A DNA stretch of 64,000 bases from Planctomycetaceae bacterium (GTDB taxonomy: Bacteria; Planctomycetota; Planctomycetia; Planctomycetales; Planctomycetaceae): contig PBOJ01000112.1 of NCBI GenBank assembly GCA_002724315.1, positions 1 through 64,000 of the forward strand, read 5' to 3'. The translations under genes were made by a program, and so were the position numbers. The notes beneath the pieces were generated by a model that had not been told where the DNA came from, searched no databases, and was given only the letters and a program-made list of their open reading frames with translations. Below, one piece after another: positions 19,001-22,877 of the stretch. Numbering within the stretch: position 1 is the first letter of the stretch; the number at the start of each line of letters is the position of its first letter.

Positions 19001-19099
19001 ACGGATGTCTCGCTGGAAATCGACCCGTGATGCGTCGTCGGCCGTCGCGACAGAAGTCCACAGCAGGCAGATCAGCGCACAGATCGATCGGTGGTCCAT
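16025..19099 (-). CDS. PSD1 family cytochrome-like protein (PSCyt1-DUF1549-DUF1553)
   Basis: The 1024-residue protein has a signal peptide (1-20) and an N-terminal planctomycete cytochrome C domain with the heme motif C40-FQ-C43-H44. DUF1549 follows (about 145-350), including LLGLPPT and a second CxxCH (CAKCHDHKFDP). The middle holds a jelly-roll-like insert with the sequence GFRLEALTDPS. DUF1553 lies near the C-terminus with NRLWQTFFGTG and SEDFGSQGEPPSHPELLDWLA. The family is abundant in planctomycetes; redox function outside the cytoplasm is inferred from the heme motifs. It heads a five-gene run and is divergent from the sulfatase gene at 19227. The ATG at 19099 directly precedes the leader. 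Confidence 0.9.
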   Translation of the reverse strand: MDHRSICALICLLWTSVATADDASRVDFQRDIRPILSENCFQCHGPDAKARKSDLRLDIATKALAHDPPLLVAGQPQKSLLWQKVSSNDPDVRMPPEESNRRLTGAQQDLIRRWIAQGGEFRRHWSLVPPVRRPPPTVPTEGLSPARNAVDTFIQARQQAAGLSMSPPANRRTLLRRLAFDLLGLPPTEHELAMFLADSQPGAWNRAVDRMLNSPRFGEHMAWNWLVASRYADTNGYQGDRTRVMWPWREWVIGSFNDNLPFDRFTVDQLAGDLIPSATPGQLVATGFNRNHPLNGEGGRIAEENRVEYVLDRTDTTATVWMALTLGCAKCHDHKFDPLSQKEYYRFSAYFNSIAESGRVDKGGNANPVARVTTRAQQTELHQIDFLIRQQKKILDRPLDSLETERNRWITRIHQQLADGPLAGWHILAPRSAKSLQGARIKTQPDGSLLVSGKMSTTDDYEIRVVTGLKRITGFRLEALTDPSLGFQGPGRKANFVLTEFAVSLQQGTTKPRKLDFTGAVADHSEESWKVAGAIDPSKTTGWGVWDGVNNTAQDRQAVFRLKQPVEIAEGSVLVVKLRHQSRFKEHLLGHFRISATDTPSPGLDTATVPPADILELVRKQVPNLKTGQLKRLSEYHRKTTDASRRARRLVSINRAARQRHEGGMIESMVMRDRETPRNTFLLKLARYDQPVTSEKLAHGTPTALPPLPANALPNRLAMARWLVDPGHPLTARVAVNRLWQTFFGTGLVKTSEDFGSQGEPPSHPELLDWLATEYLRTGWDTKRMIRLLVTSGTYRQSSAVTQKQLEADPYNRLLGRASRFRLPAHVIRDQALAVSGLLVETIGGVSVKPYQPPGLWADFSFGKIRYSADSGAKLYRRSLYTFWRRSLGPPNMFDEGTRDVCHVNPQRTNTPLHALTLLNDETFAEAARVFGERLLGTPGNDAARMRRAFTLVLSRPPTDPERTLLHSSLDRARQHYRAHPDQVKAYTTVGRHAPAIGLDPVEVAAWGAVASLLLNSDEAVTRE

Positions 19100-19106
19100 G
19101 GGGCGG

Positions 19107-19112
19107 ATTGTA
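19107..19112 (-). promoter_or_regulatory. Candidate -10 element placing PSD1 transcript start at its ATG
   Basis: On the minus strand, TACAAT (with TGC in front, an extended -10) ends seven bases before the ATG at 19099. If used, the transcript would be leaderless or nearly so. No clear -35 is visible. A small GC hairpin lies at 19118-19132 in the same divergent gap. Confidence 0.35.
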
Positions 19113-19226
19113 GCATTCGCCGCGCCGCGGCGACTTGCTGGAGCCACGTTACGCGGTGATTGCAAAACTCCGCCGCGGGGTCTCCAATGGCGGTTCGGTG
19201 TTTCTCACTCGTGGGGGCTTTTCGTC

Positions 19227-20723
19227 ATGAATTGCTGGCTGAATTTCCAACCACTGTCGATCGTGATCGTGTTGCTGGTTGGCCTTGGAGCTCCGCTGGC
19301 CCACGGGGCCGATGCGGCCACGTCGCGTCCGAACATCCTGTTTCTGTTCGCCGACGATCAGCGACCCGATACGGTTGCGGCGTACGGCAACTCTCACATT
19401 CGCACTCCCAACATCGACCGACTGGTTCATTCCGGGTTCAACTTCCGCCGTGCTTACTGCATGGGGTCGACTCACGGAGCCGTCTGCCAGCCCAGCCGTG
19501 CGATGTTGATGAGTGGTCGCACGTTGTGGCGAGTGCCAATGAACCTCAAGGGTGTGCCGCTGCTACCCGCCGTGCTGGCTCGCAGCGGTTACGTCACCTT
19601 CGGTACTGGCAAGTGGCACAACCGGGCCCAGTCGTTCATCCGGGCGTTTCAACATGGCAAGTCGGTTTTCATCGGCGGCATGTCCGATCACACGAAAGTG
19701 CCCGTCCGGGACCTGGCCGCTGACGGAAAGCTGACTCCTCCAAGGAAGGCCGAGCGGTTTTCCAGCGAGGTCTTTGCCGATGCGGTGATCGATTTTCTTG
19801 GCAGCCGGAAGGGGAAATCCGACAAGCCGTTTTTTGCTTACGTCGCCTTCACCTCGCCGCACGATCCCAGGCAACCGCCCAGAAAGTTTGCCGAGATGTA
19901 CGCGCCCGACCGGGTCAAGCTGCCGCTGCCGGCCAACTTCATGCCTCAGCACCCTTTCCACAACGGATGGATGGTGGGTCGGGACGAAGCGTTGGCGGCC
20001 TGGCCACGAACCCCCGAGGTCATTCGCAGCCAGCTGGGCGAATACTACGGGATGATCAGCCATCTCGATGAACAGGTTGGACGTGTGCTGGCTGCGTTGA
20101 ACAAAAGCGGTCACGCCGAAAATACGATTGTCGTCTATACCGCTGATCATGGCCTGGCCGTCGGCAGCCACGGACTGCTGGGCAAGCAGAACCTCTACGA
20201 GCACAGCATGGGAACGCCGATGGTGATCAGCGGCCCGGGAATTCCGCAGGGGAAATCCAGCGAGGCCCTGGTCTACCTGTATGACCTGTTCCCCACCATC
20301 TGCACCTGGGCCGGGGTGGAGGTGCCCGAAAAGGTCGAGGGCCGAAGCCTGGCCGGCGTAATCAACGGAGAGAGGCGATTGGTTCGCAAGACGTTGTTCA
20401 CCGCGTACGAGAACAAGATGCGGGCAGTGCGGGATGATCGGTACAAGCTGATCCGTTATCCGCTGATCAACCACACCCAGCTGTTCGATCTTCACGGTGA
20501 TCCAGCCGAGCTGAAGAATCTTGCCGGCGAAACGGGACAGGCTGAACGAGTCGAGCGGATGATGTCGCTGCTCGAAACCTGGCAACAGCAGACCGGGGAC
20601 AAGACCCCCCACACCTCGAAGAATCCCAAGTCGAAGGCGATTGACCTGACAGGCCGAAAGCGAAAACCCGATCGGCATCAACCCGAGTGGGTCATCCGGA
20701 AGTACTTCGGTGATGTGGACTGA
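19227..20723 (+). CDS. Secreted sulfatase (choline-sulfatase/iduronate-sulfatase-like)
   Basis: The 498-residue enzyme starts at the ATG before a signal peptide (about 1-27). Type I sulfatase motifs are visible: the metal-binding FADDQRPD (41-48), the formylglycine site C87-QPSR, GKWHN, and YTADHGLAVGSHG. These enzymes hydrolyse sulfate esters, and the leader places it outside the cytoplasm, where sulfated polysaccharide fragments would be substrates. The exact substrate cannot be read. A formylglycine-generating enzyme is not in the window. The gene is divergent from the PSD1 operon and ends three bases before the convergent glutathione peroxidase stop. Upstream in-frame starts (from 19005) overlap the PSD1 gene and were rejected. 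Confidence 0.9.
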   Translation: MNCWLNFQPLSIVIVLLVGLGAPLAHGADAATSRPNILFLFADDQRPDTVAAYGNSHIRTPNIDRLVHSGFNFRRAYCMGSTHGAVCQPSRAMLMSGRTLWRVPMNLKGVPLLPAVLARSGYVTFGTGKWHNRAQSFIRAFQHGKSVFIGGMSDHTKVPVRDLAADGKLTPPRKAERFSSEVFADAVIDFLGSRKGKSDKPFFAYVAFTSPHDPRQPPRKFAEMYAPDRVKLPLPANFMPQHPFHNGWMVGRDEALAAWPRTPEVIRSQLGEYYGMISHLDEQVGRVLAALNKSGHAENTIVVYTADHGLAVGSHGLLGKQNLYEHSMGTPMVISGPGIPQGKSSEALVYLYDLFPTICTWAGVEVPEKVEGRSLAGVINGERRLVRKTLFTAYENKMRAVRDDRYKLIRYPLINHTQLFDLHGDPAELKNLAGETGQAERVERMMSLLETWQQQTGDKTPHTSKNPKSKAIDLTGRKRKPDRHQPEWVIRKYFGDVD

Positions 20724-20726
20724 ACC

Positions 20727-21329
20727 CTAGCTGGCCAGGGCCTTTTCGATCACCGACTTCATTTCTTTCGAACGGGGTTGAACGTGAGGTCGAAATCGGC
20801 CGATCACCTGGCCCTTTCGGTCGAGCACGAACTTTTCGAAGTTCCACTCGACTTTTCCCTTCCCTGTGGGCGGGGCGTCCTGGCTGGTGAGGTACCCGTA
20901 GAAAGGGGCCGCCTGTTCGCCGTTGACTTCGATCTTGGAGAACAGGTCGAATGACACCTTGTACTTCGCCTGGCAAAAGTCCTTCACTTCCTGGTCGGTT
21001 CCCGCGGCAAAGCTGCCGAACTGGTCGGTGGGGAAACCGAGGACCGCGAAGTTCTCTTCGCCGTACTTGTCCTGCATGTCCTGCAACTGCAGGAACTGGG
21101 TCGTCAACGATCAGCGACTGGCGATGTTGACGACAACCACCACTTTGCCGAAGTAGCGGGCCAGGTTCACTGGCTCACCGTCGATCGACGTCACCTGGAA
21201 ATTCAACGATTCCGGGACCGGTCCCGTGGGCGGAGTTTTCGGTAGCGGCTGGTCCTGGCAGCCGAACGAAACGAGCAGCGCGACACCCAGTGTCGCGATC
21301 GTCGCAGCGTTCATTCGGGTGCGTCGCAT
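20727..21329 (-). CDS. Selenocysteine-containing glutathione peroxidase, lipoprotein (in-frame TGA = Sec73)
   Basis: The reading frame from 21329 gives 200 residues only if the TGA at 21111-21113 is read as selenocysteine. The flanks are N-I-A-S-R-U-S-L-T, the exact active-site context of seleno-GPx (NVASxUGxT), and the frame continues without shift through LGFPTDQFG, KIEVNGE and W162-N163-FEKF, so both sides are conserved. Residues 1-24 look like a lipoprotein leader ending FGC. A SECIS-like hairpin starts 12 bases after the TGA. The enzyme would reduce peroxides at the cell surface. The catalytic glutamine position (motif GQEP) reads SFAAG here. An alternative start is the ATG at 21314. A nonsense mutation is the main alternative. 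selA, selB, selC and selD are not in the window. Confidence 0.85.
21075..21113 (-). promoter_or_regulatory. Bacterial SECIS-like element with its UGA codon
   Basis: Reading the minus strand, the TGA (21113-21111) is followed after 22 bases by a tetraloop AGTT (21088-21085). The loop is closed by TCCTGC/GCAGGA (six pairs), a two-by-two internal loop and two outer pairs (CA/TG). A G within the first two loop bases and a UGA-to-loop distance of 16-37 bases are the published bacterial SECIS rules as I know them, and both are met. Confidence 0.7.
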
Positions 21330-21395: not shown

Positions 21396-22877
21396 TCATC
21401 CGGTTGCTTCGGGACCGGAAACGCCCGCTGCGGCACCCCGTGATCGCCACCGACGGCGCAATGCCAGTCCACCGCACAACAGCAACAGCAGTCCGACGGG
21501 AACCCCGATAATTGTTGGTTGGTACCACCAGCCGTTGATGGTCATCCAGGTGATACTGGTCCCGTGTGAGACTTCACATTCCGGCAGCGCCTTCTGCAAC
21601 GCCAGTACGCCGGCTGCGGTGATATCCGGACAGTCGTTGAGATTGACCCATTCGAGTTCTTCGAGGGTTGCGACTGATGTGAGACCCGCGTCGGAGATCT
21701 TCATGCAGCCATCCAGCCAAAGCTGTTTGAGCTTCTCGAGTTGTTCGAGTTGTTTCAGCCCCGTATCGGTAACCGGCATGTCGGTGAGATGGAGTTCGTG
21801 CAGCTGAGTCAGTTCCGAGATGTGGACCAGCCCCGCATCGGTGATCTTGGTGTTGCCGGGATAGACACCCAGGTTGAGCTTGGTGATCTGGCCGAGTCGG
21901 GCGAGTGATGCCAGCCCGCGGTCGGTGATCTGTTGGCAATATGCGAGGCGGACGGATTCCAGCGATTCGAGTTGCTCGAGGTGGATCATGTGCTGGTCGA
22001 CCAGCCTGGTGCCGGCCAGGTCCAGGGACTTCAGGTTGGAGAGCCCCGCCAGGTGACGGAGACCCGATCCATCGATGTTCGTCTCGGCCAGGCTCAGGGT
22101 CTCGAGGTTGACCAGGCTACCCAGGTGGACGAGACCCTCGTCGGAGACGAGTTGTTCCCGCCGCCATCCTCCTGGCAGTACGAGCGATTTGAGTTGTTGT
22201 TGATTGGCGAGGTGTACCAGCCCCTCGTCAGAGAGTGACCATTCTGAAAGATCAAGATCGGACCGGGGTGCGATGGCGTTGAGGTAGGGGGCCAGTCCGT
22301 CGTCGTTGTAAGAACCGGCAGGGAGCTTCAGCACCATGAAGTTGCGACCGGCCAGTTGCTTCAGGCCCTCGGTCGTGATTTCCGTATCCGCGAGATTCAG
22401 TTTGGTCAGCGACTTCAACCCGGCCAGCTGTGCCAGTCCCCGATCGGTCACTTGGCGGCAGCCGTCCAGGCGAAGGTCTTCCAGTGATTTCAGCCTGGCC
22501 AGCCGCGCCAGTCCTTCGTCGGTGATCTTTGTTTGGGTGAGTCCGAGAGATTTCAGTTGTTGAAGATCTTCGATGTGGGACAAATGCCGGTCGGTGAACT
22601 GAGGGGAACCCAGCCCAAGACGTTGAAGATGTTCGAGATGCCGCAGCGTGGCGAGAACCTTGTCGGACAGCCTGGTGTGGTGGTGAAACAGCACTTCGAC
22701 GACGTGGCCTGCGTCATCACGGTTCAGGGTCGCCAGGGCCCGCTCGAGGCGTGTTTCCGGCGAGTCATCGTCCACAGCGGACGACCCGGATGAGCTGGCC
22801 AGAGAGAAGACCAGCATGGCTACCGGAACCAGGGTGGCCAATGTGCGTGGTGCAGCCGACGCTCGAACCACTGTCAT
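21396..22877 (-). CDS. Leucine-rich-repeat surface protein with C-terminal membrane anchor
   Basis: The 493-residue protein has an N-terminal leader (about 11-34) and then about fifteen leucine-rich repeats of 23-27 residues of the type LxxLxLxxTxITDxGLxxL (about 75-430), similar to the cysteine-containing/RNI-like LRR class. The C-terminus has one membrane helix (about 447-470) followed by LRRRWRSRG, so the repeats face outside. LRR surfaces bind proteins; the partner is unknown. The gene lies 66 bases upstream of the seleno-GPx on the same strand, which may make them one transcript. The region downstream of the start is divergent from the PSD1 gene at 23049. A -10-like TATACT lies 39 bases before the start. 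Confidence 0.88.
   Translation of the reverse strand: MTVVRASAAPRTLATLVPVAMLVFSLASSSGSSAVDDDSPETRLERALATLNRDDAGHVVEVLFHHHTRLSDKVLATLRHLEHLQRLGLGSPQFTDRHLSHIEDLQQLKSLGLTQTKITDEGLARLARLKSLEDLRLDGCRQVTDRGLAQLAGLKSLTKLNLADTEITTEGLKQLAGRNFMVLKLPAGSYNDDGLAPYLNAIAPRSDLDLSEWSLSDEGLVHLANQQQLKSLVLPGGWRREQLVSDEGLVHLGSLVNLETLSLAETNIDGSGLRHLAGLSNLKSLDLAGTRLVDQHMIHLEQLESLESVRLAYCQQITDRGLASLARLGQITKLNLGVYPGNTKITDAGLVHISELTQLHELHLTDMPVTDTGLKQLEQLEKLKQLWLDGCMKISDAGLTSVATLEELEWVNLNDCPDITAAGVLALQKALPECEVSHGTSITWMTINGWWYQPTIIGVPVGLLLLLCGGLALRRRWRSRGAAAGVSGPEATG

Follow-up and report, generated by a model that had tools for sequence, protein, structure and literature searches.

The minus strand from position 21329 to 20727 of the 64,000-nucleotide stretch of planctomycete DNA analysed here (the window) very probably encodes one intact glutathione peroxidase (GPx) containing selenocysteine (Sec), with a predicted lipid anchor and a proposed thioredoxin-like Sec/Cys cycle. 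Two minus-strand open reading frames, 21111..21329 (72 aa) and 20727..21107 (126 aa), are split only by a TGA at 21113-21111, and the sequence confirms an earlier suggestion that they join in the same frame across it. Reading through the TGA gives a 200-aa protein with TAG as terminator. Standard annotation splits the gene, so that in these marine planctomycetes the antioxidant enzyme would be overlooked and, with it, the need for selenium. The features of the gene, all on the minus strand, are:

20727..21329, minus strand: Sec-containing GPx gene, 200 codons plus TAG, with ATG at 21329 (Pfam match, structure alignment, purifying selection in comparison with the ortholog at 92% identity)
21258..21329, minus strand: predicted lipoprotein signal peptide up to lipobox Cys24, VSFG-C (sequence, conserved in both orthologs)
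21111..21113, minus strand: TGA codon of the peroxidatic residue, predicted to be selenocysteine (U73) (frame, alignment, codon comparison)
21079..21094, minus strand: putative bacterial SECIS stem-loop, UCCUGC-AGUU-GCAGGA, with the loop starting 22 nt after the UGA (comparison across genes)
20841..21023, minus strand: span containing Gln103, Trp162 and Asn163, which complete the tetrad (alignment)
20973..20975, minus strand: Cys119, the putative resolving residue (opposite a Cys of yeast Hyr1 (Gpx3) in the alignment)

Catalytic residues and probable reductant

The readthrough protein matches Pfam family GSHPx (PF00255) over residues 43-147 (2.5e-35; 120.8 bits against a cut-off of 27). Two NCBIfam GPx models also match, with scores below their equivalog cut-offs. 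An AlphaFold model has pLDDT values mostly of 93-98 across the GPx domain, and the solved folds nearest to it are Schistosoma GPx, poplar GPX5 and human GPX4. The profile match covers the catalytic domain, as membership of PF00255 demands, and the fold match to solved GPx proteins adds to it. Rfam gave no family match within the window.

A preliminary description had placed the TGA at the active site of GPx, with homology continuing on both sides. Alignment to solved GPx proteins bears this out: residue 73 falls in the catalytic (peroxidatic) Cys/Sec column, and homology is unbroken on either side. Comparison with Sec- and Cys-containing homologs, which had been proposed as a check, found TGA exactly at the catalytic codon in 16 distinct GPx genes and TGC or TGT there in 112 distinct others; the position of the TGA is therefore not due to chance. 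When all 677 in-frame TGAs in the window were ranked by the codon bias before and after each, the GPx TGA was the sole recognised selenoprotein among the top 25, the other candidates being judged by eye. By alignment, U73, Q103, W162 and N163 would form the Cys/Sec-Gln-Trp-Asn tetrad. W162 and N163 are invariant in 23 aligned sequences, and Q103 is present, with variation at this position in a few of the Cys homologs.

In the alignment, Cys119 falls in the column of the resolving Cys of yeast Hyr1. The residue is kept in 15 of the 16 Sec genes and in 111/112 Cys genes, and a glutathione synthase search of five genomes returned none above cut-off. Since the resolving Cys is kept and no such synthase was found, a thioredoxin-like donor is favored, and our best guess from these sequences is that a thioredoxin-like Sec/Cys mechanism is likelier than a glutathione one. 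Sec73, activated by Gln103, Trp162 and Asn163, would reduce hydroperoxides; Cys119 would then resolve the selenenic acid by forming a selenenylsulfide, and this might in turn be reduced by a thioredoxin-like protein outside the cytoplasm. The last two steps are suggested by the conserved residues and the lack of a recognisable glutathione synthase. In a distant planctomycete Sec-GPx (L069, genome G215), Val replaces the resolving Cys.

The two-Cys GPx proteins of yeast (Hyr1/Gpx3) and poplar (GPX5) share the fold, the tetrad residues and the resolving Cys position with the window protein, which differs in having Sec for the peroxidatic Cys and in carrying a lipoprotein signal for export. Mammalian GPX4 has the same Sec peroxidatic residue and a monomer-type GPx fold, but differs in missing the resolving Cys and in its eukaryotic 3' UTR SECIS. 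It is unlikely that the window enzyme is a Sec protein that uses glutathione as mammalian GPX4 does, rather than depending on a thioredoxin-like protein; human GPX4 is indeed among the nearest solved folds, but retention of Cys119 and the result of the synthase search both argue against glutathione. Glutathione might possibly be taken up, or made by another kind of synthase.

Predicted selenocysteine insertion

The source genome is a 5.69 Mb assembly of 175 contigs (91.8% complete) in which the window is contig C90, and the Sec machinery and the GPx gene accordingly lie on different contigs. The organism had been expected to possess a selenocysteine system, whose absence would have spoken against the Sec reading. 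The search found a tRNA-Sec (75.5 bits, anticodon tca), selB (336.7 bits) with selA adjoining it (485 bits), and selD (336.6 bits), so that selA, selB, selC and selD, the set expected of a genome encoding bacterial selenoproteins, are all present. The selD gene (L023, G000:C25:21123-22043, plus strand) has its own in-frame TGA within CAGUAGK, at its own Sec position, and SelD is therefore probably a selenoprotein too. Since selB was also above cut-off in 4/4 genomes reached via their GPx genes, contamination of one bin is an unlikely source of the machinery. The system had been called patchy among planctomycetes, and so it is: selA exceeds the cut-off in 239 of 392 genomes, but in just 5 of 28 sampled from the family of the window. 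SelA would make Sec-tRNA-Sec with selenophosphate from SelD, this machinery being recognised by sequence, and SelB would deliver it while attached to a hairpin that closely follows UGA73.

Published criteria for a bacterial SECIS are a loop of 3-9 nt, an upper stem of 4-16 bp, a G in the first two loop bases, a position 16-37 nt after the UGA, and a minimum free energy (MFE) of -7.5 kcal/mol or lower (PMC13188914). The window hairpin agrees with them, having a 6-bp stem (UCCUGC/GCAGGA), the loop AGUU and a spacing of 22; folding of the 41-nt hairpin stretch gave an MFE of -10.5 kcal/mol. Taken alone it is not unusually stable (z -0.26): of 1000 synonymous recodings, 147 fold equally well, which for a single gene is not significant; support for the SECIS is thus comparative only. 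The hairpin codons CTG CAG TTG CAG are identical in 7/7 genes of the two GPx paralogs described below, TTG being a minority Leu codon. All 4 hairpin codons are invariant, against 4 of 22 other codons with a conserved amino acid (Fisher p 0.005, with related genes treated as independent). Such hairpins are also better, and far commoner, in the 16 distinct Sec genes than in the 112 distinct Cys homologs (Mann-Whitney p 5e-7, without correction for relatedness). Among the more distant Sec-GPx genes of planctomycetes, most carry a hairpin of different sequence, 21-25 nt after the UGA.

Orthologs of the window gene are found in a same-genus genome (G396, 92% identical) and in the marine MAG NP87 (G392, 55%). 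A second GPx with TGA at the active site is encoded in the source genome itself (C109:94675-95172, 52% identical to the window gene), and its orthologs in NP87 and in the Red Sea MAGs RS383 and RS398 all have TGA at the active-site codon. RS383 appears to be the same as the same-genus genome G395, the GPx coordinates being identical. An in-frame UGA where homologs have Cys, kept in orthologs, is the pattern expected of a bacterial selenoprotein, and it is seen here. The window gene and its 92% ortholog differ at 37 codons synonymously and at 16 nonsynonymously, with 13 of the 16 in codons 2-35 (signal peptide and linker). Behind the TGA lie 26 of the synonymous differences but just 2 of the nonsynonymous ones, which argues that this part is translated and constrained. 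Close relatives with TGC, together with decay elsewhere in the gene, had been named as grounds for doubt; both orthologs instead keep the TGA, and the gene is under purifying selection with no decay.

TGA recoding occurs in other bacteria, and the codon might stand for Trp, Gly or Cys, or be leaky, with no Sec involved. This is very improbable, given that the genome has tRNA-Sec with anticodon tca, SelA, SelB and SelD, and that these GPx genes have TGA at the catalytic Cys codon and nowhere else, with selD carrying one at its own Sec position; general recoding was rejected on these two grounds. A pseudogene or sequencing error, with TGC turned into TGA by mutation or misreading and the gene broken, is scarcely credible: one base separates the codons and the frame is unbroken in almost every GPx relative in the family, but TGA recurs at the same codon across independent genomes and in both paralogs, the Sec machinery is complete, and this reading was rejected because conservation of the TGA in diverged orthologs and constraint behind it were both found.

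Predicted membrane anchoring and the second paralog

The lipobox of the window gene recurs in both its orthologs (VAFGC and VMVGC). The pattern is present in just 4 of the 112 Cys homologs, and neither the second paralog nor any of its orthologs showed it. A signal peptide with a lipobox ending in Cys is the mark of a bacterial lipoprotein, and its presence in the window gene and both orthologs supports the prediction of a membrane-anchored, extracytoplasmic enzyme. The enzyme had been described as a surface lipoprotein; the lipobox is real and conserved, and the support it gives reaches as far as membrane anchoring, stopping short of exposure on the outer surface. The anchor plausibly puts the enzyme at the membrane, where it might handle lipid hydroperoxides, and the second, non-lipidated Sec-GPx, with its likely signal peptide, would act alongside it. 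The locus of this paralog (L002:1492-2061 on G000:C109, minus strand) lacks a lipobox and has the usual FPCNQFG stretch.

Relation to known enzymes and possible origin of Sec

Bacterial Sec-GPx is a recognised predicted selenoprotein (PMC13188914, PMC9312934), rated a high-confidence prediction in PMC13188914. Marine sequences include 5 from the Sargasso Sea (PMC1088965) and 40 from GOS (PMC2398784), and planctomycetes have already been reported to use Sec (PMC4807772). The kind of protein is therefore not new, and it is well supported that the window gene joins a known bacterial selenoprotein family. A planctomycete Sec-GPx is not named in the main texts of this literature, as far as these were consulted, and the S9 table of PMC4807772, which covers planctomycete selenoprotein candidates, may list one.

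Like the bacterial GPX-like selenoproteins (PF00255, UxxT; the Treponema denticola type, Sargasso/GOS), the window protein has Sec at the peroxidatic site, the motif U-x-x-T (here U-S-L-T) and a SECIS-like hairpin just after the UGA. The window genome differs in having two Sec paralogs, one with a conserved lipobox, and the 55% ortholog in having U-G-F-S in place of UxxT. Codons 100-111 of the window gene (20997-21032, minus strand) read TDQFGSFAAG where GPx proteins usually have CNQFGxQEPG; the 55% ortholog has CDQFGDFATG, and this divergence is peculiar to the window-gene paralog.

GPx matches were obtained in 152 of 170 genomes of the family. Among the matches listed, outside which the weakest fall, stop-containing GPx genes occur only in the genus of the window and one other; the rest are uninterrupted, with TGC or TGT in those checked at codon level. 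Four genomes flagged with one TGA (G323, G183, G140 and G103) were rejected as Sec-GPx genomes, the active-site codon being TGC. The window gene is notable because its genome has a second Sec copy while most close relatives use Cys; less usual, too, are the pairing of two Sec paralogs and the presence of a lipoprotein signal.

A 79-row tree joins the seven Sec genes of the lineage in one group (96/78) that sits among Cys genes, and four changes of the Sec/Cys label are needed to explain it. AU tests, on groups picked after the labels were seen, reject a single clade of all Sec rows (p 0.001) and one of the lineage Sec clade with the f70/f62 Sec genes (p 0.006). The tree does not tell which way the label changed; that Sec was gained from Cys is the simpler view. 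We would put at even chances a history in which a small marine planctomycete lineage converted an ancestral Cys-GPx to a Sec-GPx and then duplicated it into lipid-anchored and non-lipidated Sec forms keeping the same SECIS hairpin, Sec having arisen in GPx separately elsewhere in the phylum. If true, the lineage would offer a tractable example of selenocysteine being gained from cysteine, with the products then diverging outside the cytoplasm. A Sec paralog pair nested among Cys homologs, and Sec genes of the phylum that are not one clade, make a concrete system for studying the timing of Cys-to-Sec exchange and the reduction of selenoenzymes outside the cytoplasm.

The window gene is flanked by a convergent sulfatase gene downstream (19005-20723) and a leucine-rich-repeat (LRR) protein gene upstream (21396-22877), and the order sulfatase-GPx-LRR is kept in the same-genus genome (L157).
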